From a virus, in IMG/VR virus record IMGVR_UViG_3300010885_005689, positions 1-29,015 of that record: a DNA stretch of 29,015 bases. One strand, 5' to 3'. The position numbers were made by a program, and so were the translations under genes. Below, piece by piece: positions 9,566 to 28,979 of this stretch (the first letter of the stretch is position 1; every line of letters starts with the position of its first letter). The notes below the pieces were generated by a model. The model searched no databases, had not been told where the DNA came from, and worked only from the letters and a program-made list of their open reading frames with translations.

Positions 9566-10738
9566 ATGGCTGATTTTTCATTAACCACGTTATTCGTGGT
9601 TCCAGTAGGGCAAACAACTGTCCCTAGCTCTGGCTCAACACAAGACCTGACTGCAGGTACTGTGGGAATCTTTAGAAGCGATTACTCTGTAGCTACTGCT
9701 AGTGGAGGTAATGCAATTGCTGATAAACCTTACTTCTATGTAGCACAAGGAAGAGTAAATACTTATCTACAAGGATCTAAAAGATCTGACAAGATATCAG
9801 GTAAAAACAATGCTGGTACAGGTAGTAACGTAACTGAATGGTACAAAATTACTGGTTGCCCAACTGCTGCTAACCAAGTTACTGATGTTACTGATTTCAC
9901 TGTACAATGTGGAGAAAGTATATCTTTAACTTTACGTGCTAGTTCTTCTTACATTAATACATTGTATTTTAATGGTTTCACTCGTTCAGTAACTGTACAA
10001 GCTCCTTGTTGTAACTGTAGCGATAATCCATGCGATGATGTAAGTGATAATACAATAATCAATTTATTGATTGCTAAATTAACTGCTAAAGCTCCTGGTA
10101 TCAATCCTGATAACATTAACTTTAACACATTCTGGACATTTGAAAATGTAGGTGGTACAATTTTACGTATTACAGGAAAACCATTAACTAAATATGGTCA
10201 ACCATGTGATATTGCTGCATTCCCTTTTGAATATGATAGAATGAGCTTTAGAACATTTGTATATGCTGGTCCAGCTACTACTGCTGACTTTATTGTTGCT
10301 GACAATTGTAACTTAGTTGCTAATCCTGTTATCACTCAACGTGCTTCTTATGCTACTGGTACATCTGCAGAAATTGCTCAATTAGAGAAAAACTTCTATA
10401 GCTACCAAGCTGGTTACTTAAAACATTTATATAGAATGAATGGATATAATGAGAACTTTGAAACTTGGGTTTCTGATGGTACTTTTTATAATACATTTTA
10501 TATTAAATTCAATGAGTATAACAGATCTGAGTATCAATGGGGTGATTACATTATGGAAGATTCTACAGTAATTCTTGCTATCCCACAAACAGGTGGTGCA
10601 CTTACTTCTGGATTTGAAACCATTTTGACTGCTGCTTTAGGAACTGCTGTAAGTAACAATGCTTGTATCACTACAACAACTACTACTTCAAGTGCTCCTG
10701 CTAGTACAACAACAACAACTACTACTAGAATTCCTTAA
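9566..10738 (+). CDS. Virion structural protein with C-terminal poly-Thr tag
   Basis: 390 residues, no signal peptide. Most of the protein is Gly/Thr/Asn-rich and beta-prone, starting MADFSLTTLFVVPVG, with a Cys cluster at about residues 149-156 (CCNCSDNPC). A second, more aromatic half (about 275-355) has the pattern EYNRSEYQWGDYIMEDSTV. The C-terminus has six Thr, a Ser/Ala/Pro spacer and then exactly seven Thr followed by RIP. The codons are well chosen and a strong terminator follows, suggesting an abundant virion protein such as a decoration, tube or ring protein; I cannot choose. The start context is AAATAAAAATGG, which recurs before several genes here and fits Bacteroidota initiation without Shine-Dalgarno pairing. 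Confidence 0.55.
   Translation: MADFSLTTLFVVPVGQTTVPSSGSTQDLTAGTVGIFRSDYSVATASGGNAIADKPYFYVAQGRVNTYLQGSKRSDKISGKNNAGTGSNVTEWYKITGCPTAANQVTDVTDFTVQCGESISLTLRASSSYINTLYFNGFTRSVTVQAPCCNCSDNPCDDVSDNTIINLLIAKLTAKAPGINPDNINFNTFWTFENVGGTILRITGKPLTKYGQPCDIAAFPFEYDRMSFRTFVYAGPATTADFIVADNCNLVANPVITQRASYATGTSAEIAQLEKNFYSYQAGYLKHLYRMNGYNENFETWVSDGTFYNTFYIKFNEYNRSEYQWGDYIMEDSTVILAIPQTGGALTSGFETILTAALGTAVSNNACITTTTTTSSAPASTTTTTTTRIP
10670..10726 (+). repeat. Poly-threonine codon tracts (6 and 7 Thr)
   Basis: Six Thr codons (10670-10687), a Ser/Ala/Pro spacer and seven Thr codons (10706-10726) near the gene's end. ACA and ACT are mixed, so the tract is not a pure DNA repeat. Confidence 0.85.
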
Positions 10739-11498: not shown

Positions 11499-12083
11499 AT
11501 GTTATCACCAAGATTAACTAATTGCCCAGAATGTGCTAACATTCCTTTTTTACTTAAAAAAATAGATTGCAAGTTAGCGGAGCTTGGTAATAATTTGTAT
11601 AACAATATTTCATATATGTTAAACAAACCAATCCCTACTGATGATATAATTCAATTAATAGGGTATAGAAGAATATTACAATATAAATATATAAACCCAA
11701 ACTACGCTCATAGATATACAATAAATATGATTGCTAGCAGAGTGATACGTCTTACAGTGGGATGTGTTAGTAAATGTAATACTCCAGAACCTTGTTTAGA
11801 GGTTCCTTGTAATATTACAATAGTTCCTAACACAACAACTACTACCACTACTTTATTTAGTACTAATTATACTGTAGCAGGATGTGAAAGAATGGAATAT
11901 GATGTTATAACATATAATGGTAATGATATATTACCTACAGGTACTATTGTTAGTAATAATACACCTGAATGTTTTTTTATAACTAATGTAACTACTGATC
12001 CTGCAACTGTAAACTTTGTTGAAACTGTATGGCCTATTCCTAATGACTGTCAACCTTGTATAGATTCTCATATAATACCTTAA
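11499..12083 (+). CDS. Two-domain structural protein with internal poly-Thr linker
   Basis: 194 residues. The N-terminal domain (1-110) starts MLSPRLTNCPECANIPF, is mainly helical, contains LIGYRRILQYKYINPNYAHRY and ends in a Cys cluster (CVSKCNTPEPCLEVPC). A stretch of exactly seven Thr (nt 11832-11852) then joins a small beta-prone, Cys-bracketed domain (about 119-194). The N-terminal part looks like a conserved crAss-like adaptor; the C-terminal part looks like an added module of the type seen in the fibre proteins at 13242. Because the linker equals the C-terminal tags of neighbouring proteins in length, this may be a former tagged C-terminus to which a module was later fused. Function unknown; association with tail fibres is inferred from neighbours. 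Confidence 0.5.
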   Translation: MLSPRLTNCPECANIPFLLKKIDCKLAELGNNLYNNISYMLNKPIPTDDIIQLIGYRRILQYKYINPNYAHRYTINMIASRVIRLTVGCVSKCNTPEPCLEVPCNITIVPNTTTTTTTLFSTNYTVAGCERMEYDVITYNGNDILPTGTIVSNNTPECFFITNVTTDPATVNFVETVWPIPNDCQPCIDSHIIP

Positions 12084-12102: not shown

Positions 12103-13227
12103 ATGTCCAATTGCACAAATTGTTTTAACGGATGTACAGAGATTGTCTCTGACAGATGTGTTAGATATACAGGAATAGATGTTCCTGCACTAGGAATCAC
12201 TACAGGAGATACTTTATCTTCCGTAGAAAGTTCAATAGTAAATTTTCTTGTACCAGTATTAACAGGTGTAGGGATTAAACCAATTATAGATGATACTATT
12301 ATTTGTAATCTTGTAAGAAGTAATCTTCCTACATGTACAACATATACAGGATTTACATTAAATGATGTGTTATCAGCTATTATAAAATCTATTTGTGATC
12401 TTCAAGAACAAGTAGATGTGATAGATGCTACACTCGTTACTATTAATGCCACTCTTACTACATTAAATGCTGATTATACATTACCAATAGGACCTGCACC
12501 AGATTATACACCATGTTTAACAGGTGTTACAGCTTCTTCAGATACACATGCTATTTTACAAGCTGTAATAAATAAACTTTGTGGTTTAGTTACTAGTCTT
12601 CCTCATACATATGTAGCTATTGCAGATATTGATATATTTATACAAGATTATTTAAATAGTACAACTAATAGTCTTATTAGTAATAAAATGGTTCCTTATA
12701 CTGTAGTTCCTTATTTTGGACCTATAACATTTTTTAATTCTACAGGAGCTGGTACATTAAATTGGGATAGAATATTTTTATGTAATGGTAATAATGGAAC
12801 TCCTGATTTAAGAGGAAGAGCTCTTACAGGTGTTATTAATGGTGTTCCTGGTCCAACTATGAATGCTGCTGTTAACCCTTCTGCTAGTCCAGCTAATCCA
12901 AATTATAGTCTTTATGATGTTGCTGGTGCTAATCAAGTAACACTTACATCTACACAAATTCCTTTACATACACATGCTAATACTATTTCAGTAGTAGATC
13001 AAGGACATACTCACACTACATTTGCAGATGTAAAATATAATAGTCCTGGAGCAGGTTTAAAACTTGATACTCAACTTAATATTGCAGGAGGTACTAATAT
13101 TACTAGTTCTAGTACTGCAAATATAGTTGCTACAATAGATAATGTAGCTGGACCTGATGGAGGGGGATTACCTCATCCAAATATTCAACCAGTAATGGCT
13201 TGTTACTATATTCAATACAGACCTTAA
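12103..13227 (+). CDS. Tail fibre protein with phage tail-collar domain
   Basis: 374 residues. The N-terminus is Cys-rich (MSNCTNCFNGC), probably for attachment. A segment about 80-130 is helical and coiled-coil-like with many Thr/Ile/Leu (VDVIDATLVTINATLTTL). The C-terminal 175 residues match the tail-collar / microcystin-dependent family: NWDRIFLCNGNNGTPDLRGRAL, then the His pairs in IPLHTHANT and DQGHTHT (HxH motifs, which bind metal in T4 gp12-like proteins), and the family ending LPHPNIQPVMACYYIQYRP. The role would be host-surface binding by a trimeric short tail fibre. It carries no poly-Thr tag, unlike the genes around it. The call on the collar domain is firm; the receptor is unknown. 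Confidence 0.85.
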   Translation: MSNCTNCFNGCTEIVSDRCVRYTGIDVPALGITTGDTLSSVESSIVNFLVPVLTGVGIKPIIDDTIICNLVRSNLPTCTTYTGFTLNDVLSAIIKSICDLQEQVDVIDATLVTINATLTTLNADYTLPIGPAPDYTPCLTGVTASSDTHAILQAVINKLCGLVTSLPHTYVAIADIDIFIQDYLNSTTNSLISNKMVPYTVVPYFGPITFFNSTGAGTLNWDRIFLCNGNNGTPDLRGRALTGVINGVPGPTMNAAVNPSASPANPNYSLYDVAGANQVTLTSTQIPLHTHANTISVVDQGHTHTTFADVKYNSPGAGLKLDTQLNIAGGTNITSSSTANIVATIDNVAGPDGGGLPHPNIQPVMACYYIQYRP

Positions 13228-13241
13228 ATAAATAAATAAAA

Positions 13242-14483
13242 ATGGCATATCCATATTTAACAGTAAATCCTTGTTGTACAGATGTAATTTTAAATAGTCC
13301 TTGTGGAACTACTGACCCATGTTCTACTCATTTAACTATTTCTAGTACTATTGTTTATGATGGTCCTTTATTACCATGTATAGTAGCTGAACCATGTGAT
13401 ACACTTAATGTTATATTACAAAAAATTGATGAAATTATTTGTACATTACTTTCACAAATAAATACATTAAATAATCAAGTTACTAATATTAATAGTCAAT
13501 TAATAACTATTAATAATGATATAACTAATATATATAATGTATTAGATTATTGTTGTGTAACTACAACAACAACATCAGCTCCTCCTTGTGAAAATTTTTC
13601 ATTAAATAATACAGGAGTTACACCAGTAGCTATAATTATTACAAATTGTATAACACATGTAGAAGAAGCTATAGTATTGATGCCAGGAGCTACAAATATT
13701 TGTGTTGTAACAAATAGTCCTTTAGTTGTACCAGGTACAGTTATTGCAACACCAAATGGCCCTTGTGGTACTACTACAACTACTAGCACAAGCTCAACAA
13801 CTACTACTACTACTACAGCTATTCCATGTGAATGTTTAACTGCTATTAATGAAGATAGTATATCTCACACAATATCTTATACAGATTGTTTTGGTGTTTT
13901 TCTTGAAAATGATATAGATATTCCTTCTTATGGAACTGTAAAATTTTGTGGATGTTGTGCATACTCAAATAGTCGTCTTGTAACAATTTCTATAGGAGAA
14001 AATTGCATAGATCAAATATGTCCAACTACAACCACAACTACTACAACTTGTAATCACCCTAATTTAATTACTAATGGTACATTTAATACTAATTTAAATG
14101 GGTGGAATTTAGATATAGTTCCTGATTGGCAATGGAGTTCTGCACATGGTGGAAGTGCACATTATATAGGAAGAGATGAGCTTGCAATTTTATCTCAAAA
14201 TACATTAACAATAGGAAATACATATGATGTAACATTTGATCTATGGTGTGATAATCCTACTAATATAATTAATGTATTAGCTGGAACAGCTATACATAGT
14301 ATAACAAATATATCAGGATATCAAAGTGTACATATAATAGTTACATGTATAGGTAATTCATTATTTGGTATTCAAGGTGATGATTCACAAGGAAATCCTT
14401 ATGATACAATATATATTAAAAATGTAAATGTAAGTATACATTGTCCTCAATTTACAACAACTACAAGTACAACATTACTATAA
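13242..14483 (+). CDS. Modular fibre/adhesin with poly-Thr linkers and CBM-like domain
   Basis: 413 residues in four modules separated by Thr tracts. Module 1 (1-105) is Cys-rich then coiled-coil-like (INTLNNQVTNINSQLITINN), paralogous to the next gene's product. Modules 2 and 3 (about 112-175 and 193-260) are small Cys-bracketed beta domains with a shared pattern (I-x2-TNC/YTDC near the middle). Module 4 (about 270-405) begins LITNGTFNTNLNGWN and has GNTYDVTFDLW and IKNVNVSIH, the pattern of jelly-roll carbohydrate-binding domains. The protein ends in TTTTSTT-LL. Thr tracts lie at nt 13560-13574, 13770-13817, 14025-14048 and 14454-14474. It probably binds glycans on the host surface. Binding specificity is unknown and the modular origin is inferred. 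Confidence 0.65.
   Translation: MAYPYLTVNPCCTDVILNSPCGTTDPCSTHLTISSTIVYDGPLLPCIVAEPCDTLNVILQKIDEIICTLLSQINTLNNQVTNINSQLITINNDITNIYNVLDYCCVTTTTTSAPPCENFSLNNTGVTPVAIIITNCITHVEEAIVLMPGATNICVVTNSPLVVPGTVIATPNGPCGTTTTTSTSSTTTTTTTAIPCECLTAINEDSISHTISYTDCFGVFLENDIDIPSYGTVKFCGCCAYSNSRLVTISIGENCIDQICPTTTTTTTTCNHPNLITNGTFNTNLNGWNLDIVPDWQWSSAHGGSAHYIGRDELAILSQNTLTIGNTYDVTFDLWCDNPTNIINVLAGTAIHSITNISGYQSVHIIVTCIGNSLFGIQGDDSQGNPYDTIYIKNVNVSIHCPQFTTTTSTTLL
13560..13574 (+). repeat. Poly-Thr linker tract (5 Thr)
   Basis: Five Thr codons (one ACT, four ACA) separate the coiled-coil module from the first Cys-bracketed domain. Confidence 0.8.
13770..13817 (+). repeat. Thr/Ser linker tract
   Basis: Sixteen codons, thirteen Thr and three Ser, in ACT/ACA/AGC/TCA mix; the longest linker of the window. 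Confidence 0.8.
14025..14048 (+). repeat. Poly-Thr linker tract (8 Thr)
   Basis: Eight Thr codons using ACA, ACT and ACC join the third small domain to the carbohydrate-binding-like domain. Confidence 0.8.
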
Positions 14484-14485
14484 AC

Positions 14486-14776
14486 ATGGCTAATTGTCCT
14501 CAAATAAATAATACAACAATAATAGGAACGAGTACTATCACATATGATGGTACTCCTCTTCCTTGTTCAAATGTACAGACATATGATGGATTAAATGATA
14601 TTCTTATAAAATTTGATAATATCATATGTAATATTCAACAATCCACTAATACGCTTATAAATGATATAACAAATATTACAGAAGATGTAATGCTTGTTAC
14701 AGAAGATATAATTAATATAAACAATCAATTAGGTGTATGTTGTCCTACAACTACCACCACTACAACATTAATATAA
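14486..14776 (+). CDS. Short fibre-stalk protein with C-terminal poly-Thr tag
   Basis: 96 residues. The correct start is ATG 14486, two bases after the previous stop; a longer frame from 14441 would overlap the preceding gene. The sequence MANCPQINNTTIIG is followed by STITYDGTPLPC and a helical, coiled-coil-like stretch (LNDILIKFDNIICNIQQ to INNQLGVCC), then exactly seven Thr and LI. It is a paralogue of module 1 of the protein upstream: STI-x-YDG-x2-LPC, LN-x-IL-x-K-x-D-x-IIC and a final CC before the Thr tract line up. It is thus a stalk ending where the upstream protein continues into adhesin modules. A trimeric coiled-coil role is inferred. Confidence 0.65.
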   Translation: MANCPQINNTTIIGTSTITYDGTPLPCSNVQTYDGLNDILIKFDNIICNIQQSTNTLINDITNITEDVMLVTEDIININNQLGVCCPTTTTTTTLI

Positions 14777-14787
14777 AAACTAAATCA

Positions 14788-15039
14788 ATGACAGTATTTA
14801 TAACATTAAGCACAGCAGGAGATAATGCAGGCCCATTTAATTTATATTCAAATATTGATGGATATACAACAGCATTTGAATCAGGAATAGATAAAACTTT
14901 ATTACTCGCAGGATATGCATCTTCATTAGTTCCTGATTATACAACAACTGTTAGAGTACTTTCTACTGGAGAGTGTACTAATTATATTGATTTACTTTTA
15001 TCAGGCACAACTACTACAACAACCACTAGTATAATATAA
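14788..15039 (+). CDS. Small 'NAGPFN' domain protein with C-terminal poly-Thr tag
   Basis: 83 residues from ATG 14788; upstream in-frame codons overlap the previous gene and are not used. The single beta-prone domain begins MTVFITLSTAGDNAGPFN, continues with LLLAGYASSLVPDYTTTVRVL and ends STGECTNYIDLLL, followed by seven Thr and SII. The same domain forms the N-terminus of the protein at 26240 (MTKVITIKLVKTGPNAGPFN, then LLIQGISYIV and TSIGKCN). No named family was recognised. In both places the gene just upstream ends in seven Thr, so domain and tag travel together. A strong terminator follows, ending the fibre operon. Confidence 0.65.
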   Translation: MTVFITLSTAGDNAGPFNLYSNIDGYTTAFESGIDKTLLLAGYASSLVPDYTTTVRVLSTGECTNYIDLLLSGTTTTTTTSII

Positions 15040-16433: not shown

Positions 16434-16475
16434 ATGGCAACATTAAGAAAATTAGTATCAGATGATTCAAAGTAG
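16434..16475 (+). pseudogene. 13-codon stub of the structural gene split by a homing gene
   Basis: The frame reads MATLRKLVSDDSK then TAG. Its first nine residues equal the start of the gene at 17267 (MSTLRKLVSS) except at position 2. It begins 4 nt after the phosphoesterase stop, the natural place for the next gene, and the ATG of the GIY-YIG gene lies inside it at 16462 in another frame. I read it as the original 5' end of the structural gene, cut off when the endonuclease gene entered after codon 9 or 10. Confidence 0.65.
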
Positions 16476-17250
16476 TGGTAAATATTATGTATATAGATAC
16501 ATTAGATTAGACAAAAATGAGCCATTTTATATTGGAATTGGTACAAAGGCTAGTAAAAAAATAGGATTTAGATCAATTAAATCTGAATATCATAGAGCAT
16601 TTAGTAAACATTATAGCAATATCTACAATAAAATAATTAAAAAAACCAACTATATTGTAGAAATACTGATTGAATCAAATGATTATAATTTTATTAAAAA
16701 TAAAGAAATAGAGTTTGTTAAACTTTATGGAAGAATAGATAATAAAACAGGAATACTAACAAATTTAACTAATGGAGGAGAAGGAACAACAGGTTTTATT
16801 ACATCTCTTAGTACTAGAGAAAAAATAGGATTAAATAATGCATCTAAAGGAAAATTTGGAAAAGACAATCCTAGATCTAAAAAAATTTATCAATATGATA
16901 TAGATGGTAATTTTATTAAAGAGTGGGATAGTTTAGCAGATGTTGGCAGATTTTTTAATATGCCAAATAAAAGAATACCTTCATTTAAAAATAAAACTTT
17001 TAAAGGTTATCAATGGCATTATAATTTTTTAGGTGTACAAATAAAAAAAGTAGATTATACCGTTGGATTAAATAATAGATTAGTAAAAATTTGTGTTCCA
17101 ATTTATAAATATGATTTAAATAATAATTTTTTATGTAAATATAACTCATACAGTGATGCCTATAAAGATACAGGAATTTCTATTAATGGTATCTGGGGAG
17201 CTATACATAGAAAAAATAATATATGTAAAGGATATATTTGGACTAAATAA
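16462..17250 (+). CDS. GIY-YIG homing endonuclease with NUMOD repeats
   Basis: 262 residues. The nuclease domain shows YYVYRYI (residues 8-14), the YIG part in PFYIGIG (21-27), conserved basic residues after it, a likely catalytic Glu at 82 in KEIEFVKLYGR and the usual LTNGGEG (102-108). It is followed by NUMOD3-like KGKFGKDNPRSKK and two NUMOD1-like DNA-binding repeats: IYQYDIDGNFIKEWDSLADV and the later IYKYDLNNNFLCKYNSYSDA with GIWGAI. The endonuclease would cut an allele lacking the insertion and be copied by repair. It overlaps a stub of the next structural gene, whose start is rebuilt downstream. The codon use is AT-rich and Arg is mostly AGA. Confidence 0.9.
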   Translation: MIQSSGKYYVYRYIRLDKNEPFYIGIGTKASKKIGFRSIKSEYHRAFSKHYSNIYNKIIKKTNYIVEILIESNDYNFIKNKEIEFVKLYGRIDNKTGILTNLTNGGEGTTGFITSLSTREKIGLNNASKGKFGKDNPRSKKIYQYDIDGNFIKEWDSLADVGRFFNMPNKRIPSFKNKTFKGYQWHYNFLGVQIKKVDYTVGLNNRLVKICVPIYKYDLNNNFLCKYNSYSDAYKDTGISINGIWGAIHRKNNICKGYIWTK

Positions 17251-17266
17251 AATATAAAAAATAAAT

Positions 17267-17995
17267 ATGAGTACATTACGTAAATTAGTTTCTTCAATAA
17301 GAAGTGTCCACAAGATACTTTCAACTGACTCTTTGATAACTGACCGTGCAATTGCAAGTGAAATAAGAAATAATTCTTTATTATTAATTAAAAGAGAAAC
17401 AAATCTTAGAAAGCTTTGGTCTACCGATACGCTTTTTACCACTATACCATGTCTTGAGATGTGTGAAGTACCTATTTCTGAATGTTGTAATTATATAGAT
17501 GATTGTACAATAGCAAGAACTAAATTTAAACTCCCACGTATATCAGAAGGTAACTACCAATATGTAATACAAGGAGTTTATTCTATTAATGCTTTAAGTG
17601 GTAGAGGTAAGAAATTAAAAGAAATATCTGTTAATAGATATATAAACTTACTTAAACTTCCTGTAATTAAAAATGAAGAATATTTTTGGATAACAAATGA
17701 ATATCTATATGTAAATAATCCTATGCTTAAATCAATTAGATTAGTAGCATTTTTTGAAGAAGATGTAGATAATGATATTATGTATCCAGAATGTGGTTGT
17801 GGTTCACCAGAATATACAACTGAACAATTATGTATGAATCCTTTAGATAAAGAATTTCCTCTTCCTGGTTATTTAGAACAACAAGTATTAGAATTAACTT
17901 CTAAAAAATTATTGTCTACATATTTTAATATCAAGACAGATAATACACAAGAAGGGATTGATGGTCAACAACCAAATTCAAAACCAACTAATTAA
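17267..17995 (+). CDS. Structural protein (probable head-tail ring or tail component)
   Basis: 242 residues. N-terminal 55 residues are helical and basic (RKLVSSIRSVHKILSTDSLITDRAIASEI). A Cys-containing middle follows (CLEMCEVPISECCNYIDDC, about residues 63-81), then a beta-prone region with KEISVNRYINLLKLPVIKNEEYFWITNEYL, a CGCGS element and a helical C-terminus that trails into a polar tail. I recognise it as a conserved crAss-like virion gene that travels with the one at 19256, probably a ring of the head-tail connector, without being able to name the ring. Its first codons are a synonymously altered copy of the stub at 16434, so its 5' end was likely replaced when the GIY-YIG gene arrived. 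Confidence 0.6.
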   Translation: MSTLRKLVSSIRSVHKILSTDSLITDRAIASEIRNNSLLLIKRETNLRKLWSTDTLFTTIPCLEMCEVPISECCNYIDDCTIARTKFKLPRISEGNYQYVIQGVYSINALSGRGKKLKEISVNRYINLLKLPVIKNEEYFWITNEYLYVNNPMLKSIRLVAFFEEDVDNDIMYPECGCGSPEYTTEQLCMNPLDKEFPLPGYLEQQVLELTSKKLLSTYFNIKTDNTQEGIDGQQPNSKPTN

Positions 17996-18617: not shown

Positions 18618-19259
18618 ATGATACAATATAAACAAGGTGATAAAATAGGAAAATTAACTTTCATTAAAGAAGATTTTCATCAAAAAGAAGTTACAGGTTT
18701 TCAAAAATATAGAATGGTAGTAATGGAATGTTTTTGCACAAGAAGATTTATTACTAGACTTTCATCAATAAGAAATGGTAAAACTATTTCATGTGGGTGT
18801 ACTAGAAGAGATGGATTACTTAAAATAATAACAACTCATAATATGAGTAAATCTTCTGAATATGCTTCTTGGGAAGCTATGAAATCAAGATGTTTAAATT
18901 CTAATAATATTTTTTATCACAATTATGGAGGAAGAGGAATTACTGTTTGTAAAGAATGGTTAGATTTTAAAAAATTCTATATAGATATGGGAAATAAACC
19001 TGATTCTACTTATTCAATAGATAGAGTAGATGTAAATGGAAATTATGAACTTTCTAATTGTAGATGGGCTAGTAAAAATATTCAAGATAGGAATAAAAGA
19101 AATTCTGTATATTTAATATATAAAAATAAAAAATATATATTAACTGATTTAGCTAAAAAGTTTAATCTTAATCAACAAACATTAAAATCTAGATTAAATA
19201 AAGGAATGGAATTAGAACAAGCTTTAACAAAACCTTATAAATACACAAAAAAATTATGA
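18618..19259 (+). CDS. HNH-type homing endonuclease with N-terminal zinc knuckle
   Basis: 213 residues. The N-terminal 70 residues have the paired Cys C38-x-C40 and C59-x-C61 of a zinc finger common in this endonuclease group. Residues about 80-160 form the nuclease: SWEAMKSRCLN, YHNYGGRGITVC, and the signature SIDRVDVNGNYELSNCRWA (133-151), the diverged HNH pattern of AP2/HNH-type homing enzymes. The C-terminus is a basic helix-turn-helix-like tail (LTDLAKKFNLNQQTLKSRLNK). It has a private promoter and its stop overlaps the next start by 4 nt (ATGA), so it couples translation of a virion gene to its own. It is the third homing-type gene of the window. Confidence 0.85.
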   Translation: MIQYKQGDKIGKLTFIKEDFHQKEVTGFQKYRMVVMECFCTRRFITRLSSIRNGKTISCGCTRRDGLLKIITTHNMSKSSEYASWEAMKSRCLNSNNIFYHNYGGRGITVCKEWLDFKKFYIDMGNKPDSTYSIDRVDVNGNYELSNCRWASKNIQDRNKRNSVYLIYKNKKYILTDLAKKFNLNQQTLKSRLNKGMELEQALTKPYKYTKKL

Positions 19260-20230
19260 GTTATTTTTATAAATATAATTTTGTATCTCCTGAACCAATA
19301 TATGCTATTGTATCAGAAGAACTTAAGTCATATATGGATACTGGTGCGGTTGACAATTTGTTATTTCCTACTTATTTAGATAAAGCTCTAAAAAAGTTAG
19401 GAAGAACATCTTATGTAATAGCAGAAGAAATTCTTTACATAGAAGATTTTGAAGCAAGGCTACCTGATAACTTTTATGCTGTTAGAGAAGCTTGGATGTG
19501 TACAGCAGTAGATGGTTATCCTTATCAATCAGCTAATTCATTTTATACACAAGCAGCTAGTGCTACTACTATTCAAGTGTCACCATTAACTATTGGTGGA
19601 ACTCCTTGTAACAATCCTACGTGTCAATCTCCTCAATGTGATGGTACATGTATGCCAGAATTAGTACAAGCTGTTTATAAGACTAATAATAGTGTTGCTA
19701 GAAGTTTTACTCATCAATATTTACTTAGACCAGGAAACATCTCTGCAAGAAAGAATTGTGGTGTAGATTATACAAACAATTGGGAAATGTATGCTGACTC
19801 ACTTCCTGTACATGAATTTACTCCTGGTGCAGCTAGTCATGATTCATTTGACATACGAGATAATAAATTTGTAACTAATTTTAGAAATGGTGTTGTACAT
19901 TTATTATTTTATGCTACAGAGTATGATGAATTATCAAATCAAATGATTCCTGATAATTATCGTATAAGAGAATATGTAGAAGCATTTATTAAATTTAAAG
20001 TGTTTGAAATGCTTACTAACCAAACTAATGATGAAACATTTAATCAGTTACAACAAAAATTAATTTATCATAAGCAAGCATACGAAGAAGCATATATTAT
20101 GGCAGATATTGAAGTAAAAAAACAAACTGCTGATCAAAAACAAAGAAGAATTAAAAACGATCTTAATAGATTTAATATGTATGAACTTCCCAACCGTACT
20201 AACAGGTATGGAAGAAGACGTAACAATTAG
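19256..20230 (+). CDS. Structural protein (probable head-tail ring protein), crAss-like
   Basis: 324 residues beginning MSYFYKYNFVSPEPIYAIVSEELKSYMDTG, a start I associate with a conserved crAss-like virion family. Features: a helical N-terminus with a conserved-looking LPDNFYAVREAWMC (about 75-88), a Cys cluster (CNNPTCQSPQCDGTCMP, about 118-134), a beta-prone middle and a long helical C-terminus about 250-320 that turns basic (NRTNRYGRRRNN). Such a protein would be a ring between portal and tail. It overlaps the HNH gene by 4 nt and lies 5 nt before the giant tail gene, with which it is probably co-translated. Which ring it forms cannot be decided from sequence alone. Confidence 0.62.
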   Translation: MSYFYKYNFVSPEPIYAIVSEELKSYMDTGAVDNLLFPTYLDKALKKLGRTSYVIAEEILYIEDFEARLPDNFYAVREAWMCTAVDGYPYQSANSFYTQAASATTIQVSPLTIGGTPCNNPTCQSPQCDGTCMPELVQAVYKTNNSVARSFTHQYLLRPGNISARKNCGVDYTNNWEMYADSLPVHEFTPGAASHDSFDIRDNKFVTNFRNGVVHLLFYATEYDELSNQMIPDNYRIREYVEAFIKFKVFEMLTNQTNDETFNQLQQKLIYHKQAYEEAYIMADIEVKKQTADQKQRRIKNDLNRFNMYELPNRTNRYGRRRNN

Positions 20231-20235
20231 TAAAT

Positions 20236-23200
20236 ATGGCTGATCAACAAAACGAACAGGGTAATATAAGAATGGAATTTGGGGTTGCTACTTCTGGATT
20301 AAACATGGACAATACATTGAACCAAGTTAAGCCAGGAGAACTAACCTATGCATTAAATGCAGCATTAGAAAACTTTGATTCTAGTTCAGTTAACTATCAA
20401 AATGAACAAGGTAATGAATTTTGTGTTCAATTTCCTTCAGGATATTCTTTAATAGGTACTCATTTCATTAATGAGAAAAATAAACATATATTCTTTTTAG
20501 CAAATCCTAGCACAGGAATGAGTCAAATAGGATATATGGATAACAATGATTGTATATATAATATATTAGTTGAAGCTACATGTTTAAATTTTAATATTTA
20601 CCATCCTATACATAAAGTAGTACATAAGATTACAAATTGTACAACAGAAATATATTGGACAGATGGTTATAATCCAAGAAGGTATATGGATATTACTCCT
20701 GATAATCTTCCTTGGAAATTATTATCTGGTACATCTTTGTGTGATCCTATATATGATGTAGGTAATTTAGATTGTAATAAAATAAAAATACAACCTAATT
20801 TTAATATTCCTGAATTAAATATTACAGATGTTATTAGTGGAGGAAATTTAAAAGCAGGAACAGTTCAATTTGCTGCACAATATAGTGATGCTTCTGGTAA
20901 TGGATATACATCTTATTATTCTGTTACTAATCCATGTCCTATAGTTGATGTACATATTACAGATTTTAATTTTGATTATGAAGTAGGTAAATCTGTTGTA
21001 GTAGAAATTTCTAATTTAGATATTACAGGAGAGTTTAGATATTTTAATTTAGCTGTTATAAAAACAGTAAATGCTGCTATATCTGTTAATTTAGTAGGAA
21101 CATATTCTATTGATTCTACTTCTAAAAAAATTACATATACAGGTGAAGATGTAACTACAACAACATTAAGTATTGGGGATATATTTGAAAAATATCCTTA
21201 TTATGAAATAGCTCAAGATCTTACAGCTGTTCAAGATATTCTTGTATGGGATAACCTTACTTCTATAGATAGAATTAATTATCAATCTATAGCAAGCCAA
21301 ATAAATCTTAAATGGCAATCATATAAGTTACCTGCCACTGAAAGTTATGCAGATGAAGTAAATGCTACTAATTTAAAAGGATATCTTAGAGATGAAGTAT
21401 ATGCATTTGAGTTAGTATTTTTACTAAAAAATGGAAAACAAACAGATGGTTTTCATATTCCTGGAAGAGTTTTAAATTATAATGATTTACAATTTCCAGA
21501 TGTTCCTGATACAAATGCAGATTTTGTAGGAAACCCTACAACTATTGATCCTGTAACAGGAATAGGATATAGTCCTTATTGGAAAATATATAACACTGCA
21601 ACTTTAACTGGACCTGCAATAGGAGATCCTATTAATAATGCTACACCGCATGAATATGGTGAATTTTCTTATTGGGAATCAGAAGAAAGATATCCTTGTA
21701 ATGTAGCTTTATGGGGTAATCTTGCTGATCAACCTATTAGACACCATAAGTTTCCTGATGTATTAATTAGTCCTGCATTTGAAAGTGCTGTTCCTGAAAT
21801 ACAAAATGGTAAGTATAAAGTAATAATGCAAAATGATTCTGTTTATCCATTGGGGGTTAAAGTGGAATCATCTCAAATTCTTACAGCTATAAATAATTCA
21901 GATCTTACAGATGATCAAAAAGATAATATTGTTGGGTTTAAAATAATAAGAGGAGATAGAGGAACAAATAAATCTATTATAGCAAAAGGTATTCTTAGAA
22001 ATGTTGGTTCATATAAAAGAGAAGAAAAAGAATACTATTACCCAAACTATCCTTATAATGATCTTAATTCAGATAAGTTTATAAATAAAACAAATAATGC
22101 CTGGATACAAGGTGCCACACCTTGGATAATACAATGTTATAGAGGAATTAACGGTGATCCAGCTGTAGCTCCAAGTTATACTTATACAAGTTTAGAAACA
22201 GGAAAACCTACACCTATAACATTACAAGTAGGAGAAATAGTAGAAATATGTTCTACTACAAGACCATTTGCTAATTATCCAGATACTATGTATGTAGGTC
22301 CAGGAAGTTATGATGTATATAAAACTGTGTCTACAGATTGTAGAGGATTTCATGTAAACTGGGATGATCCTTTTACTAATGATAATTCTTCATATATACA
22401 TCGTGAAGAGTATTTAAATGGAAATAGTTGTTGTCTAACTAGTCCATTTAATTGTAATGGTTGTTATTTTGTAAATTATGCAAGGGTTAATGTTAGTGGT
22501 GCACCTGAAGATGATTGTAGAAATAGAGGAATAAATGGTGATTGGATTCCTCCAACATTATATGGTCCATGTCAATGTGGGTATGATAGAACTAAAATGA
22601 TTAGTATAGCAAGTCCATCAAATGTATTTAATTTTGGTCCAGATGGAACTTTACAAAATCCTACAGTTGGAAGAATAAGTCTTTTAAAATGTGGTGAAGA
22701 AATTCCTATAGATTCTTTTAATCCTGATAATAAAGATTTAAAATATAGACAAGTTTTTAATTCTCCAGAAACTTCTTTTGGACAACCTTTTTTAGGAAGT
22801 GTTCTTAAATTAGAAAATGTAATGTATGGTGCAGGAACTGCTCATCATGTTCAAGTTAGAAACAATGCAAAGTATAGACTTCTTTCTAAAGAAGCTCAAC
22901 AAGATGCTTTAAATAGTTCTTATAATATTGCTGCAATTGGTGGATTTAATTCTACAGCTATGTATACAGCATATCAAACTTATTTACAAATTTTTATTAA
23001 TGGTATATTAAGAAAAAACTTTGCTTATTCATATAACTCAATAGCTAATTATGATTATTCATCAAGTATAAATAATAACATTGGTATTAAGCAAAGAGAA
23101 CTAGATTTAAAATCATATTTAATTCCTGTTGTACAATCTGTTGGAGAACCAAATGGAATTAATATAAATAACTATCAAAGAGAAACATCTATATATTTAA

Positions 23201-24741
23201 AAACAATAGAAAAAAGAAATAATAATATTGTAGATCCTTTATTGTTTCCTAGTGATATACCATCTTTATTAAATGGTGCTGTTCCTTATATTACAGATAA
23301 ATCTAGATATACTATATCTGAACTTGAAAATTGTAATTCTCCAGAAAAACAAAAAGATATTACAGTTGTTTCTTATTATGGATCATTAAAAAATATAGTT
23401 ACTAATCAATGGGGACAAATATATTCATATCAAACTGTTGATACTGGTGCACAACAAATATTTAATTCTGTAAATTTTCAACCATCATTTACTGTTTTTG
23501 GTGGAGATACATTTATTTCTCGTTTTGCATTTAAAACTAAATTACCATTTTTTATAGATAATAGAGTTAACTCTCCTGATGATTCTGAAATATTTTATGA
23601 TGAATTAGGAAATTTAGGTTATCCTAAATACTGGCATTCTTCTAGATCTATACTATATGATTTTATTAGAGATGGTAATGTATTTAAAAATATAATATCA
23701 GTTAAAGCACATAATTTTGATTGTGCTACAAATCCTGCTGATATTTCTTCAGCAATAGATGGAATAAATGGTACATATAGAACTTATTATGATGGTAAGT
23801 TTTATTTATTTGCATATGGTATTCCTAATTTTTATTGTGAAAGTTCTTATAATACAGACCTTAGACAAGCATTTAATAATAGAGAAGGTGATTTTTGGCC
23901 ACATGTAACAACAGGTATTCCTGATGACTGGGTACAAGAAACTTTTGTACCTATTACATTTGATAATACATATCATTATAATCCTACTTATTCTAAACAA
24001 AATAAAGAAAATTACTTTAGTCACCTTCCTGCGGATTGGGAATCTAAATTATGTTTTACAAATTATCCATTTAGAGCTATTTATTCTGATGCACAAGAAC
24101 AAAATGCAGATGTAAGAATTAATAATTGGTTAAACTATTCACCTATATCTTTATTTGATTTTCCTCAAAACTATGGTAATCTTATATCTTTAGATGGTAT
24201 TCAAAATAAAGCTATACTTGCTAGGTTTGAAAATAAATCATTGTTATATAATAATTTATTAACAATGAATTCTACAAATCCAAAAGCTGCTTATTTAGGA
24301 GGAACTCAATTATTTGGGGCTACACCTCCAATTGATTTTGCTGAAACAGATCTTGGATTTGTAGGAAGTCAAAATAAATTCTTTCTTAAGATTCCCCAAG
24401 GACAAGTAACAGTAGATGCTAAAAGAGGTCAAATATTTTTAATACAAGGTACAGATATTAATGAAATTGGAGGATTTGGTTCTGGGGTAAACAGATTTAT
24501 GACAGATCATTTATCATTTGAAATGTTAAGATATTTTCCAAAAGTTGATACAGATAATAATTTTAATGGTATTGGATTACATGGTGTATATGATAGTAAA
24601 TTTGAAAGAGTTATTGTAACTAAAATAGATTATATTCCTATTGATAAAGATGTTAAATATGATCCTATAACAAAAGAATTTTACATTGAAACAATTTATG
24701 ATGTAATTCAACCTACAACCACCACTACTACTACATTATAG
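20236..24741 (+). CDS. Giant muzzle-like tail protein, C-terminally truncated and Thr-tagged
   Basis: 1501 residues, by far the largest protein here. It opens with a Gln/Asn-rich lead, then repeating beta elements: IYWTDGYNPRRYMDI (about 136-150), VQFAAQYSDASGNGYTSYYS, a Cys-rich insert about 730-785, and late blocks such as KGQ/KRGQIFLIQGTDINEIGG and FERVIVTKIDYIPIDKDVKYDPITKEFYI. This pattern matches the very large tail-tip or 'muzzle' protein of crAss-like phages, which closes the short tail and guides DNA exit. The frame ends VIQP, seven Thr and L, then tandem stops TAG TAA TAA. Relatives, as I recall them, continue directly into sequence found here at the start of the next gene, so this product seems to be the N-terminal part of a divided protein. 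Confidence 0.7.
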   Translation: MADQQNEQGNIRMEFGVATSGLNMDNTLNQVKPGELTYALNAALENFDSSSVNYQNEQGNEFCVQFPSGYSLIGTHFINEKNKHIFFLANPSTGMSQIGYMDNNDCIYNILVEATCLNFNIYHPIHKVVHKITNCTTEIYWTDGYNPRRYMDITPDNLPWKLLSGTSLCDPIYDVGNLDCNKIKIQPNFNIPELNITDVISGGNLKAGTVQFAAQYSDASGNGYTSYYSVTNPCPIVDVHITDFNFDYEVGKSVVVEISNLDITGEFRYFNLAVIKTVNAAISVNLVGTYSIDSTSKKITYTGEDVTTTTLSIGDIFEKYPYYEIAQDLTAVQDILVWDNLTSIDRINYQSIASQINLKWQSYKLPATESYADEVNATNLKGYLRDEVYAFELVFLLKNGKQTDGFHIPGRVLNYNDLQFPDVPDTNADFVGNPTTIDPVTGIGYSPYWKIYNTATLTGPAIGDPINNATPHEYGEFSYWESEERYPCNVALWGNLADQPIRHHKFPDVLISPAFESAVPEIQNGKYKVIMQNDSVYPLGVKVESSQILTAINNSDLTDDQKDNIVGFKIIRGDRGTNKSIIAKGILRNVGSYKREEKEYYYPNYPYNDLNSDKFINKTNNAWIQGATPWIIQCYRGINGDPAVAPSYTYTSLETGKPTPITLQVGEIVEICSTTRPFANYPDTMYVGPGSYDVYKTVSTDCRGFHVNWDDPFTNDNSSYIHREEYLNGNSCCLTSPFNCNGCYFVNYARVNVSGAPEDDCRNRGINGDWIPPTLYGPCQCGYDRTKMISIASPSNVFNFGPDGTLQNPTVGRISLLKCGEEIPIDSFNPDNKDLKYRQVFNSPETSFGQPFLGSVLKLENVMYGAGTAHHVQVRNNAKYRLLSKEAQQDALNSSYNIAAIGGFNSTAMYTAYQTYLQIFINGILRKNFAYSYNSIANYDYSSSINNNIGIKQRELDLKSYLIPVVQSVGEPNGININNYQRETSIYLKTIEKRNNNIVDPLLFPSDIPSLLNGAVPYITDKSRYTISELENCNSPEKQKDITVVSYYGSLKNIVTNQWGQIYSYQTVDTGAQQIFNSVNFQPSFTVFGGDTFISRFAFKTKLPFFIDNRVNSPDDSEIFYDELGNLGYPKYWHSSRSILYDFIRDGNVFKNIISVKAHNFDCATNPADISSAIDGINGTYRTYYDGKFYLFAYGIPNFYCESSYNTDLRQAFNNREGDFWPHVTTGIPDDWVQETFVPITFDNTYHYNPTYSKQNKENYFSHLPADWESKLCFTNYPFRAIYSDAQEQNADVRINNWLNYSPISLFDFPQNYGNLISLDGIQNKAILARFENKSLLYNNLLTMNSTNPKAAYLGGTQLFGATPPIDFAETDLGFVGSQNKFFLKIPQGQVTVDAKRGQIFLIQGTDINEIGGFGSGVNRFMTDHLSFEMLRYFPKVDTDNNFNGIGLHGVYDSKFERVIVTKIDYIPIDKDVKYDPITKEFYIETIYDVIQPTTTTTTTL
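24715..24735 (+). repeat. Poly-Thr C-terminal tag (7 Thr) before triple stop
   Basis: Codons ACA ACC ACC ACT ACT ACT ACA, then TTA and TAG TAA TAA. ACC is uncommon elsewhere in this AT-rich sequence, arguing for protein-level selection. Confidence 0.85.
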
Positions 24742-24762
24742 TAATAAAAATATAATAATACA

Positions 24763-26238
24763 ATGGCTGACGAAAATACAAAACCAGTAGTTATACGTAC
24801 ACAAGTTTACTTATCAGATCCTGATTATTTTTGTAATAAGTCATGGACAATGTCTTATAATTTAAATACTAAAACATGGATAAGTTATCATAGTTATATT
24901 CCTAATTTTTATATAGGAGAAAATAATTTCTTTTATTCAGGACTTAATGGATGTTGTGATGATAATCAAGCTGGTGGATTTGAAGCTATTGCTGGAGTAA
25001 TAGATAGAACTCCTCCATTAACTACAACCACCACTACATTTTATCCTTCTCCTTCTACCACCACTACTACAACAACATTAAATTGTATATTAGAAGGAAG
25101 AATATATCAAACAGATTGTATATTAGATGGTAATGCAGTAATAACTGTTTATCCTACTACCACTACTACTATATGTCAAAGACCTTTTAATTTAAGATCT
25201 AATCTTTTTCGTACAGGTTATCAAGTAGGAACTGAACCAGCAATAGTTACAACTAATAGTTTGGAAGATGCATGTAATGCAGTTTCTTTTTTAATTTTAC
25301 AACCTGCATATACAACATCATCAGGATTTAGTGTACAAGCTTTATTATATAATATTAATCAAATTGTTTATACTGATTCAACATCAACAGATTGTACATT
25401 AGTAAATAATGGATGGTATTACACTGAAGAAAGTATATATGGTAAATTTGTATATAATGTAGAATATGGTGTTATAAAAGAAATTGTAAATTGTGATTGT
25501 AATGCAACCACTTCAACAACTACAACTGCACCAATAATAGATAATTGTTGTACAGCTTTAATTAGCTCTGGTCCAGACATATACTATCATAATTTAGGAA
25601 GACCTATGGAAAAACTTAATATTCCTAATTACACTGCAAGTTTAGGTATTGCAATGACTAAAAATTATTTTTGGAGTGTTGATACAGAATTTCATCAATG
25701 GGATATAACTCTCACTCCTTTTAATGCTACATTCAATAAAGATATTTTATTTCCAGTAGGATTTACAATTAACTCTGGCATCACTGCTAAAGATGATGAA
25801 ACAATAATTGCAGTGAATAGTACAACTAATGAAATAGTTGAAATAAACATGGATACAGAAATATTATCTCCTATGTTTAGTTTAGGATTTAATAGATTAG
25901 CTATTGGTAATTTAATACTTACAAGTAATGGTAAATTATTATTACTTAATCAAGATAATTTTAGTTTAACTTATTATTTAACTCAGTATGACTATTCTTC
26001 AGGAGTTTTAGAATATGATATAGAAATAACTGCAACTACTCCTCTTAATCTATATGAATGTGATTGTTGGTTATTTATTGTAGATACAGAAGGTACATAT
26101 TGGTTATTAGATAAAACTAATCCATATGATTTACTTCCTGCAGAAACATTTCCTATTATTCCAATGTCAATTACACAAGTGTCATCTTGTTTTTCAGCTG
26201 AAATACCATTAACCACTACCACTACTACCACCATTTAA
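24763..26238 (+). CDS. Tail protein fragment plus modular domains with poly-Thr linkers
   Basis: 491 residues. Residues about 12-60 (VYLSDPDYFCNKSWTMSYN, then WISYHSYIPNFYIG) look like a conserved block of the large crAss-like tail protein rather than a new N-terminus. After that come Thr tracts (nt 25021-25038, 25057-25077, 25156-25170, 25507-25527) separating small Cys-bracketed domains, one about 155-245 with NGWYYTEESIYGKFVYN. Residues about 265-480 show repeated strand patterns (NYFWSVDTEFHQWDI, NSTTNEIVEINMDT, SNGKLLLLNQDN) suggesting a beta-propeller-like adhesin. The end is PL, seven Thr and I. The next ATG is one base after the stop region, so the two are tightly coupled. The fold assignments are by eye. 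Confidence 0.6.
   Translation: MADENTKPVVIRTQVYLSDPDYFCNKSWTMSYNLNTKTWISYHSYIPNFYIGENNFFYSGLNGCCDDNQAGGFEAIAGVIDRTPPLTTTTTTFYPSPSTTTTTTTLNCILEGRIYQTDCILDGNAVITVYPTTTTTICQRPFNLRSNLFRTGYQVGTEPAIVTTNSLEDACNAVSFLILQPAYTTSSGFSVQALLYNINQIVYTDSTSTDCTLVNNGWYYTEESIYGKFVYNVEYGVIKEIVNCDCNATTSTTTTAPIIDNCCTALISSGPDIYYHNLGRPMEKLNIPNYTASLGIAMTKNYFWSVDTEFHQWDITLTPFNATFNKDILFPVGFTINSGITAKDDETIIAVNSTTNEIVEINMDTEILSPMFSLGFNRLAIGNLILTSNGKLLLLNQDNFSLTYYLTQYDYSSGVLEYDIEITATTPLNLYECDCWLFIVDTEGTYWLLDKTNPYDLLPAETFPIIPMSITQVSSCFSAEIPLTTTTTTTI
25021..25077 (+). repeat. Paired poly-Thr linkers (6 and 7 Thr)
   Basis: Six Thr codons, the spacer FYPSPS and seven Thr codons mark the border between the tail-protein block and the added modules. 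Confidence 0.82.
26212..26232 (+). repeat. Poly-Thr C-terminal tag (7 Thr)
   Basis: Codons ACC ACT ACC ACT ACT ACC ACC then ATT and TAA; no codon repeats in a simple period, yet all seven residues are Thr. Confidence 0.85.
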
Positions 26239-26239
26239 C

Positions 26240-27106
26240 ATGACAAAAGTTATAACCATAAAATTAGTAAAAACTGGACCCAATGCTGGACCATTTAACA
26301 TTAGTGATATATATGGAAACATTATAGCTGAAAATGTTTCTAAGAAATTATTAATACAAGGTATTAGTTATATTGTAGATGCTAGTATCTCTGCTGTTGT
26401 TTTAACATCTATAGGTAAATGTAATACATCTTTTACTATACAGTTAAAAGATATTAATATTACAGAGTATGCAGATATAAAATATAGTCAATCTGTTACA
26501 GGATGTGTATGGAGTCATTTAACTAATGTAGAAATTTATAATATATTTTATGGAAACATAGAACCATACATTATAGAATATCCATTTGCTTATAAATATC
26601 AAGATGAAATTCTACAGAATGTAAAAGATTATACAAAAGCATTTGAATATCTACCTATACCAGATGGTGTTTTTAATCAGAACACAAGAATAGAAACAAA
26701 CAATAAATATTTTAATAAAGCTATTTTATATAATGGACAACAAAGTTCTGGTGTGCTTGAACTAGTTGCAAAACCAATGCATAACTTACAAGCTTATAAT
26801 AAATATCCTATATTTAACACAGAAAGTAAAACTATCACTTATACTAAGAGTGATAACTTCTATCAATACAATACATTCTGGGCTGTAGAGAAAAGTTCAC
26901 AAGTTCCATTGTTCTATACATCATGTGAAAGTCTTTCAGTGGATAAAGCAGTAAATCAAGCTAATATGGATTATGGGCCCAGAAGTTTCAAAAAAGCTCC
27001 TCTAAGAGCCAAAGAACTTAGAGTAAGACATATTCTTGACTCATCAAGTACTACTCATCTTGTTTCACAATTTTTATTGACTCCTAGTCAAATCTCATAT
27101 AAATAA
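26240..27106 (+). CDS. 'NAGPFN' domain fused to tail-protein C-terminal part
   Basis: 288 residues. Residues 1-72 are the NAGPFN domain shared with the small protein at 14788. From about residue 85 (VTGCVWSHLTNVEIYNI) to the end the sequence changes character: YPFAYKYQDEILQNVKDY, FNKAILYNGQQSSGVLELVAKP, YTKSDNFYQYNTFWAVEKSS and a basic SFKKAPLRAKELRVRHI. These look like the terminal domain of the large crAss-like tail protein. The gene begins one base after the previous stop. It thus seems to carry the C-terminal third fragment of the divided tail protein behind a newly acquired N-terminal docking module. The end is close to the next ATG (1 nt), so translation is coupled. Confidence 0.6.
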   Translation: MTKVITIKLVKTGPNAGPFNISDIYGNIIAENVSKKLLIQGISYIVDASISAVVLTSIGKCNTSFTIQLKDINITEYADIKYSQSVTGCVWSHLTNVEIYNIFYGNIEPYIIEYPFAYKYQDEILQNVKDYTKAFEYLPIPDGVFNQNTRIETNNKYFNKAILYNGQQSSGVLELVAKPMHNLQAYNKYPIFNTESKTITYTKSDNFYQYNTFWAVEKSSQVPLFYTSCESLSVDKAVNQANMDYGPRSFKKAPLRAKELRVRHILDSSSTTHLVSQFLLTPSQISYK

Positions 27107-27107
27107 C

Positions 27108-28979
27108 ATGAAAGGAAAAGTAAATTGCACATGTGGATGGTCATGGAACAAATCTGATTCTAGTAAAAAAGATATGTACGTATGTCATGAGTGTGGTAGA
27201 GACAATAGTAACAACATGCAGAATGGTGGTTGGTTAGATAGTTATGCTAATGGTGGAACAATGCAAGAACACCAAGAGAATTATAATGATTCAACAACAA
27301 CAGCTCCACAAGGCTATGTAGGTGATGGATATAGTAATGTAGGTAGAAACTATTCTCCTGCATGGGGAGGTTCTTTTCAAGAAGGAGGAGAAATTCCTCA
27401 AGCTCAGAATGGTGGATTAACTTTCTTACAACCTACTAGTGATAAACTACCACAAGGATATAGAATTCCTTATGCTGATCCTAGTTCTGAAAGAGCTATG
27501 TCTATAGGTGGAGAAGATGGAGAACCAGCTTATTTGATTCCTACATTTAAACATGGTGAACCTATTTATAATGCTATTGAAGAATTTAGAAAAACAGGTG
27601 AACATCTTGGTGGTCCATTTAAAACATGGCAAGAAGCTGAGAAATGGGAAAGTGAAACTAGACATCCTGCAGTTGAGAAAGGAGAAAAAATAATGTTTCC
27701 TCAAGAGAAATTTCAGATGGGTGGTTCTATGCCAGGTGCTGTAGGTTTCTCATATGCACGTACACAAGGTGCTGCTCCTAGTAATGGTCCATATGCAAAG
27801 AAAACAAAAGCTAGTGCACAGAATGGTCAAGAGATGAAATTCTATCAAGAAGGGTTAGATTGGAAACCTAAGAGTATTAGTAGAGAAGGTTCAGTTATAA
27901 AAGATGACAGAGGACAATGGGATCATCCAGGAGAAATAACAAGAATCTCAGGAGGTAATATAACAATGAAAAAAGATCCTAAAACAGGCAAAGCTTTAAC
28001 TGAACCTTTATTAGGAATAGCAGATACAGGAGAACAACAATGGATGTATCCAGGAGAAGACTACAATTTTGAAGGAGCTAAACATGTTACAGAATATCCT
28101 ATTGCTCAAGATGATAAAACTTTTATTAAAAATGTTGATAGTTCTTTACAATATCAAAAAGATTGGATGAATTCTCCTAGATATAAAGAAATGCTAAATA
28201 AGTCTACAGAAAATGATTGGATAGATCGTGGTTATGCAGAAGATAGATTAAAAAATTTAGAAGATTTAATTAAAAGCAAATCTTATAATATTAGAAAATC
28301 TGATGATGAATATGGTCCTATAGGTGAAGAGGCAAATTCTAATCCTAATACAGGAGTTATAAATATTTATAAAGGAGGAAGACAACCTGGAGAAGAAGAA
28401 GAAAATATATCACATGAAATATCTCATGGAACTGATAAACCTAGACTTGGTATGATTCCTTTTAGAGATAGATTAATACCTCAAAGTGATATTAACTTAA
28501 TAGAAAAATATAAACCATCTACATATAAAGAAACTGGAGCATATTTGAGAGCTACTCCAGAAGGGAAAGCAAGTATTGAAAAATACAATTTATTGAATCA
28601 AAAAGATATTAATTACAAAACTGAACCTACTGAGACAAGAGCAAGACTTAATGTAATAAGACAGTATGCTAAAGAAAATAATATATATGATCCTTTTAAA
28701 CAAAAAATTACTCCTAGATCTTATGAAAAACTTTTTAAAAATAAAGATAATCTTCCTCAAGGAGCTATGGATTTAAGAAGTATATATACAAAAGATGAAC
28801 TTATAAATTTATTAAATACAGTAAGTCAAAATGATAATCAAGATGACCACCAAAATATAACTGTAGCTAAAAATGGAATAAGACAAGAACAAAAAGGTTT
28901 GCAGAATCTAGATAATCTTGTTAACTTTACAAACTATAATAAACCACAACCAGGTGGATGGTTGAGCAAATACGAATAA
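27108..28979 (+). CDS. Virion protein with zinc ribbon and HExxH metalloprotease domain
   Basis: 623 residues. The N-terminus is a zinc ribbon (C7-x-C9 and C26-x2-C29) followed by the repeated short pattern NGGWLDSYANGG, GGSFQEGGE, AQNGG and finally PGGWLSKYE at the C-terminus; such Gly-rich motifs are common in proteins packed with crAss-like particles. A segment about 120-195 (AYLIPTFKHGEPIYNA, ETRHPAV) and one about 245-340 look globular. A zinc peptidase motif stands at residues 436-440 (HEISH) with upstream strand GVINIYKGG, and Glu 509 in PTETRARLN is a candidate third ligand. It may digest host peptide material on entry or process virion proteins. The peptidase call is by motif only; substrate unknown. 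Confidence 0.65.
   Translation: MKGKVNCTCGWSWNKSDSSKKDMYVCHECGRDNSNNMQNGGWLDSYANGGTMQEHQENYNDSTTTAPQGYVGDGYSNVGRNYSPAWGGSFQEGGEIPQAQNGGLTFLQPTSDKLPQGYRIPYADPSSERAMSIGGEDGEPAYLIPTFKHGEPIYNAIEEFRKTGEHLGGPFKTWQEAEKWESETRHPAVEKGEKIMFPQEKFQMGGSMPGAVGFSYARTQGAAPSNGPYAKKTKASAQNGQEMKFYQEGLDWKPKSISREGSVIKDDRGQWDHPGEITRISGGNITMKKDPKTGKALTEPLLGIADTGEQQWMYPGEDYNFEGAKHVTEYPIAQDDKTFIKNVDSSLQYQKDWMNSPRYKEMLNKSTENDWIDRGYAEDRLKNLEDLIKSKSYNIRKSDDEYGPIGEEANSNPNTGVINIYKGGRQPGEEEENISHEISHGTDKPRLGMIPFRDRLIPQSDINLIEKYKPSTYKETGAYLRATPEGKASIEKYNLLNQKDINYKTEPTETRARLNVIRQYAKENNIYDPFKQKITPRSYEKLFKNKDNLPQGAMDLRSIYTKDELINLLNTVSQNDNQDDHQNITVAKNGIRQEQKGLQNLDNLVNFTNYNKPQPGGWLSKYE

Follow-up and report, generated by a model that had tools for sequence, protein, structure and literature searches.

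A muzzle protein of crAss-like phages apparently encoded as three consecutive chains around a variable, adhesin-like insert

The muzzle of the crAss-like phage phicrAss001, gp44 (7qol/7qok), is a tail-tip protein situated beside the ring proteins and is described as one polypeptide, which comprises a seven-bladed propeller and a domain that joins the ring (PMC10172136). Variation in muzzle length has been reported in the regions of the IG2 and crass domains (PMC10172136). The muzzle analysed here likewise lies beside ring proteins and gp44 is the top structure match of the model of a fused relative, but in the large environmental crAss-like clade to which it belongs inserts and chain breaks are found at two further turns near the C-terminus. 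The muzzles of Cellulophaga phage phi4:1, Flavobacterium phage FpV4, csAssE-Sib and Leptolyngbya phage Lbo-JY46 share the order of three conserved blocks, A, B and C, with our locus; unlike it, they are encoded in one open reading frame (ORF), with B and C adjacent and without the domain that opens the third chain here (N-domain). A second point of comparison is provided by the genes-in-pieces of T4-like phages, such as Aeh1 nrdA, split by mobE, and the split DNA polymerase gene 43 (PMC2988022), in which an insertion breaks an essential phage gene and the separately translated parts reassemble (PMC2988022), as we presume for the present case. Those genes encode enzymes and were split by homing endonucleases or untranslated sequence (PMC2988022), whereas the split muzzle is a structural tail protein, carries adhesin-like material, and is split at two sites in a whole clade. 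In the literature searched we found no description of a split muzzle, unlike crAss-like introns, inteins and recoding or the T4-like genes-in-pieces.

The stretch of DNA analysed, hereafter the window, is a virus record of 29,015 bases in a single contig and covers the structural region of a crAss-like phage. Three consecutive ORFs on the plus strand encode chains A, B and C, and the breaks between them are referred to as A/B and B/C (Table 1). Chain A ends with ...VIQPTTTTTTTL (seven Thr and Leu), directly followed by TAG TAA TAA. Chain B starts with MADENTKPVVIRTQVYLSDPDYFCNKSWTMSYNLNTKTWISYHSYIPNFYI and ends with ...IPLTTTTTTTI (seven Thr and Ile) and TAA; one base further on, chain C begins, which contains YPFAYKYQDEIL ... 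LRVRHI. The coordinates, the tagged 1501-residue protein with its triple stop and the block sequences were thus as described in the first-pass annotation. Genes for crAss ring proteins adjoin chain A (Pfam matches to Ring_2, PF25702, at 17267-17995 and to Ring_1, PF24228, at 19256-20230). Homing-type elements were also observed within this structural block, namely an HNH endonuclease gene between the ring-protein genes (18618-19259) and a NUMOD1-bearing ORF (16462-17250).

Table 1 Features of the split muzzle locus and of related genes in the window.
Feature	Coordinates	Strand	Details
Array-type gene	14486..14776	+	ends ...CCPTTTTTTTLI
Free-standing paralogue of the chain C N-domain	14788..15039	+	83 aa; profile score 96.0, E 1.2e-30; ends ...TTTTTTTSII
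Chain A	20236..24741	+	1501 aa; muzzle core; heptathreonine tag at end
Seven-Thr tag at the A/B break	24715..24735	+	site of extra modules in several relatives
Triple stop TAG TAA TAA closing chain A	24739..24747	+	sequence
Chain B	24763..26238	+	491 aa; block B, then variable insert with five Thr tracts
Muzzle block B	24817..24948	+	residues 19-62; rich in strands; strongly conserved
Variable adhesin-like insert	24949..26235	+	429 aa; Thr tracts; missing from single-chain relatives
Terminal seven-Thr tract of chain B	26212..26232	+	
Chain C	26240..27106	+	288 aa; array-type N-domain, then C-terminal muzzle block
N-domain of chain C	26240..26491	+	~84 aa
Muzzle block C	26498..27103	+	residues 87-288; begins near strand CVWSHL

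Chain A showed homology over nearly its full length to single-chain crAss-like muzzles, with tblastn matches to Lbo-JY46, phi4:1 and csAssE-Sib and at least 80 relatives in IMG/VR. A single ORF holds all blocks in Lbo-JY46 (1654 aa), phi4:1 (2289 aa), csAssE-Sib (2257 aa) and FpV4; the phi4:1 protein was found in virions by MS/MS, and the csAssE-Sib protein is annotated as muzzle protein. PHROG 37948 was matched by chain A (E 7e-101) and by chain B (2.6e-9). PHROG 15100 matched residues 23-64 of chain B at model positions 1546-1587 and residues 88-286 of chain C at positions 1588-1781; the two matches join at 1587/1588, indicating that these pieces abut in single-chain homologues. In the fused chain, the strand CVWSHL comes after the end of block B. 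These abutting matches, together with 65 single-chain relatives, bear out the earlier proposal that the blocks lie consecutively near the C-terminus of one crAss-like tail protein: in the single-chain muzzles the blocks were present in the same order, and neither homologues lacking them nor relatives whose counterparts of the three products aligned with unrelated full-length proteins turned up. It is therefore well supported at the level of sequence that chains A, B and C of the window correspond, in order, to consecutive pieces of one crAss-like muzzle protein. In place of one polypeptide per subunit, the window has three ORFs with stops at the A/B and B/C breaks. Since homology and gene place are kept while the single polypeptide is lost, we regard the locus as a split variant by descent, not as an ordinary crAss-like muzzle. 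Accordingly, the 288-aa chain C and block B should be annotated as muzzle parts, and not be labelled unknown proteins.

Relatives were collected from IMG/VR using chain A, chain C and an alignment of distant homologues as queries; used by itself, the Leptolyngbya phage protein returned nothing, whereas the alignment query succeeded. Profiles built for blocks B and C and for the C-terminal part of A were then run against 247 loci, 234 of which matched the block B profile. The three blocks were in one ORF in 71 loci, A and B were joined with C separate in 109, all three were separate in 47 and 20 were incomplete, counts that describe the sample and not natural frequencies, since the loci retained per scan were the best matches to the query. 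Removal of near-copies left 65 one-ORF loci, 68 with only C separate and 23 with three ORFs, the window among the last; the clade thus comprises 91 distinct loci with B and C as separate genes. The distance from B to C was 1-14 codons in the single-chain loci (65 distinct, comprising phi4:1, FpV4, csAssE-Sib, Lbo-JY46 and IMG/VR contigs), and 157-903 codons plus a stop in the split loci listed. As in the T4-like genes-in-pieces, the insertion lies exactly between pieces that are contiguous in unsplit relatives.

The tree of chain A (156 rows, 1214 columns) gathered the split rows in one branch with a support of 100, and the sole unsplit row inside it was locus L239 (L numbers denote loci of the survey). 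L239 reads ...NNFFYSGLNDCDGFTSTQQSATSCMWRHLKNPEIYN... across B and C with no stop, and its C block groups with those of the split loci L078 and L082 (support 98). Since its A and C sequences alike place it inside the split clade, L239, one metagenomic contig that ends within block C, is most readily explained by re-fusion through deletion. Over the whole C-block tree, three changes between split and unsplit are needed instead of two, and few branches are well supported. From these trees, the B/C break is a single old event, save for the nested natural re-fusion in L239. The A/B break changed seven times on the chain A tree and was consequently not one event; it is separate from the B/C break, repeated and reversible, having arisen or been lost several times. 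Some single A/B rows, such as L040, may be sequencing faults. A search for chain C in bacterial genome assemblies gave no match.

The material inserted at the B/C break of the window comprises residues 65-491 of chain B and residues 1-87 of chain C. The insert is 76% identical to that of the nearest relative, L004, and 38-50% identical to those of the others compared, while the flanking blocks are 69-98% identical. Its length after block B ranges from 25 to 1690 codons with a median of 278 (91 split loci). The 1690-codon tail belongs to a chain at L081:9995-19555 which, at about 3190 aa, is among the largest proteins in the set. Across ten near-relative pairs, dN/dS ranged over 0.02-0.17 in A, 0-0.16 in B, 0.04-0.21 in C and 0.26-0.74 in the insert; purifying selection acts on the B and C cores, and far less on the insert. 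No Pfam or NCBIfam match was obtained for the insert of the window, to which we would ascribe an adhesin role. DNA similarity to several relatives picks up again at 26196-26212, level with the last Thr tract of chain B or slightly upstream of it, which agrees with an exchange border without proving one; the insert could instead diverge fast in place. The B stop and the C ATG were mostly -1 to 13 bases apart in the 91 split loci, and the frame of chain C relative to B took all three values (41/27/23). Such short gaps in three frames fit re-initiation or translational coupling, and exclude one conserved frameshift or readthrough. Chains B and C are separated by 252-1951 bases in L030, L038, L065, L174, L180 and L184; an N-domain ORF lies within this gap in L038, L065, L174 and L184, indicating that extra genes can stand between the muzzle pieces.

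The N-domain opens chain C in all 91 split loci and is present in none of the 65 single-chain muzzles. Its paralogues are the N-termini of other proteins, encoded by tandem, often Thr-tagged, adhesin-like genes. Another ORF ends close upstream of 80 of 85 paralogues, and in 14 of these 80 it ends with a Thr tract. In the window, the free-standing paralogue starts 11 bases after the stop of the array-type gene, which is the layout of the B/C break. Both of these small tandem genes end with a seven-Thr tag. A hand-written, consensus-like query found no match to the N-domain in annotated phages. Since chain C always opens with an array-type N-domain, the stop-start pair probably arrived with a two-gene array fragment. 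Such a fragment would consist of the end of one gene (variable modules, Thr tract and stop) and the start of the next (ATG and N-domain), and would have entered the turn between two C-terminal beta strands of the muzzle gene. The suggestion in the first-pass annotation that a tag and a fresh start codon had sealed each break does not hold for the B/C break, which traces to a single event and where a conserved array-type domain of ~84 residues opens chain C.

At the A/B break, the window has only the Thr tag, and a similarly short tag is found in L004, L079, L009, L090 and L007. Several close relatives carry modules of ~170-690 residues there, differing in kind, after a Thr/Ser-rich stretch. 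A FISUMP domain (PF09603 / TIGR02145), absent from the window, was matched in the chain A tails of L086 and L028 at this site. A and B are connected in frame by a short linker in L159, L013 and L023. At the A/B site, ~307 codons are present in the single chain of phi4:1 and ~358 in that of FpV4, which indicates that this turn tolerates inserts in general. The idea that adhesin modules had entered between the blocks applies to the B/C break, where variable, adhesin-like material lies exactly between them, but not to the A/B break of the window with its tag alone.

Tracts of at least five Thr occurred in 88 of 91 B-bearing chains, in one of 63 complete single-chain muzzle ORFs and in none of 90 C chains. 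Such a tract fell within the last 20 residues of 51 of 91 B chains, compared with 44 of 891 other ORFs of the same loci; with ~44% of B chains lacking one, the terminal tag is not required. Tract lengths peaked sharply at seven (347), compared with six (127) and eight (67), with mixed codons enriched for ACC, a pattern indicative of selection at the protein level. Because the codons are mixed, we discarded the idea of a pure DNA repeat. These data suggest a fixed-length heptathreonine element in the split clade, which might be a linker, a glycosylation site or something else. We favor linkers, which may also mark the edges of module exchange. Further Thr tracts are found in the window at 10706-10726, 11832-11852 and 13797-13817.

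Sequence searches of solved structures with chains A and C gave insignificant matches only, so that structure comparison was needed. The re-fused L239 chain was modelled over its C-terminal half with AlphaFold (53 sequences, mean pLDDT 70), and confidence in the B-C part was mostly 80-94, the junction loop excepted. The best match of this model was the phicrAss001 muzzle (7qol, E 4.4e-12), followed by other podovirus nozzles and beta-propellers. The B/C junction is a low-confidence loop (489-498) between strands 480-483 (FFYS) and 501-504 (MWRH), and the A/B junction is a turn between strands 425-429 (FYII) and 435-438 (TVVK). Both breaks are thus predicted to fall in turns between beta strands, which may be loops of the propeller. 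When chain C of the window was modelled alone, confidence was ~83-90 for the N-domain and generally lower for the muzzle part, below the confidence of that part in the fused chain; the best match was again the muzzle (7qok, E 3.5e-3).

For the virion to retain a muzzle, three separate chains would have to rebuild one fold. We propose that the separately translated chains fold together round the same sheet into a hexameric muzzle, and that the tail of chain B, or in some relatives that of chain A, hangs outside as an exchangeable adhesin. As every adhesin forms the end of a chain of its own, it could be lengthened, shortened, frameshifted or swapped without harming the essential downstream segment, and the virus can probably swap fast-changing segments without disturbing the essential core. 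Assembly of the virion muzzle from three chains is our reading of the sequences, and we consider the explanation as a whole, combining a three-piece muzzle subunit, an origin from an array fragment, co-folding chains and exchangeable adhesin tails, to be highly probable. A further extension is offered tentatively and may well prove wrong: the muzzle would be a chassis with two standard sockets, at which chain breaks in surface turns would allow adhesin chains to be attached as the tail of a subunit piece, heptathreonine-bordered cassettes would move between the array and the muzzle, and host range would evolve by cassette swaps on the DNA gate.

One long chain could still be produced if the breaks were only apparent and were overcome by stop readthrough or frameshifting. 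Other crAss-like groups recode UAG or UGA (PMC7886860), and the stop of chain A in the window is TAG; however, TAA TAA follows it directly, and TAA ends the B chain in nearly all loci listed. Moreover, chain C occupies all three frames relative to B, in the numbers given above, and in every one of the 91 loci it starts with an ATG and a domain of N-terminal type, which leaves readthrough or frameshifting very unlikely. We give just as little credence to the idea that the inserts are spliced out as introns or inteins to restore one chain. Some crAss-like groups are rich in self-splicing introns and inteins (PMC7886860) and ORFs of homing-type endonuclease and NUMOD1 character lie nearby (18618-19259 and 16462-17250), but the insert is itself an open reading frame, 25-1690 codons long after block B and freely variable in length. 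In addition, it is Thr-rich and adhesin-like, it is closed by a stop, after which comes a conserved domain starting with ATG, relative frames vary instead of being conserved, and endonuclease and intein profiles were unmatched in B and C (PHROGs, Pfam and NCBIfam).

Chains B and C might alternatively have left the muzzle and now be separate adhesin or accessory proteins that retain old sequence, as could be suspected from the domain typical of another family gained by chain C and from the mostly variable chain B. This is improbable, given that the constraint on the B and C cores is comparable to that on A, that exactly one copy of block C is present in each of 24 large phage records (24/24), that model confidence for the C core was lower in isolation than within the fused chain, and that natural re-fusion in L239 restored a single chain. 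The window is one 29 kb contig, which could raise the suspicion of an assembly error or a decaying gene; the chance of this is practically negligible, as many samples, with 91 distinct loci in all, show the B/C layout, and the frames are intact and under selection. We therefore retain the muzzle assembled from three chains as the preferred explanation. No profile match to a homing endonuclease was found in the inserts examined; the split muzzle is hence not of the homing-endonuclease type of the T4-like genes-in-pieces, and may still work in the same way. It represents a clear, clade-wide case in which an essential structural protein is maintained as separate pieces, with variable adhesin-like segments that end their own chains. 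Should three-chain assembly be confirmed, the distal tail would couple receptor binding directly to the DNA gate, and host range could change with no need of in-frame insertion.

Two other genes of the window deserve mention. The ORF 3' of chain C (27108-28979) encodes a 623-aa protein without match in PHROGs and Pfam, which is rich in Cys at its start (CTCGWSW...CHECG) and contains an HEISHG motif, a type of motif typical of zinc metallopeptidases. The ORF at 12103-13227 encodes a putative fibre protein, the C-terminal part of which resembles a tail-collar domain by eye.
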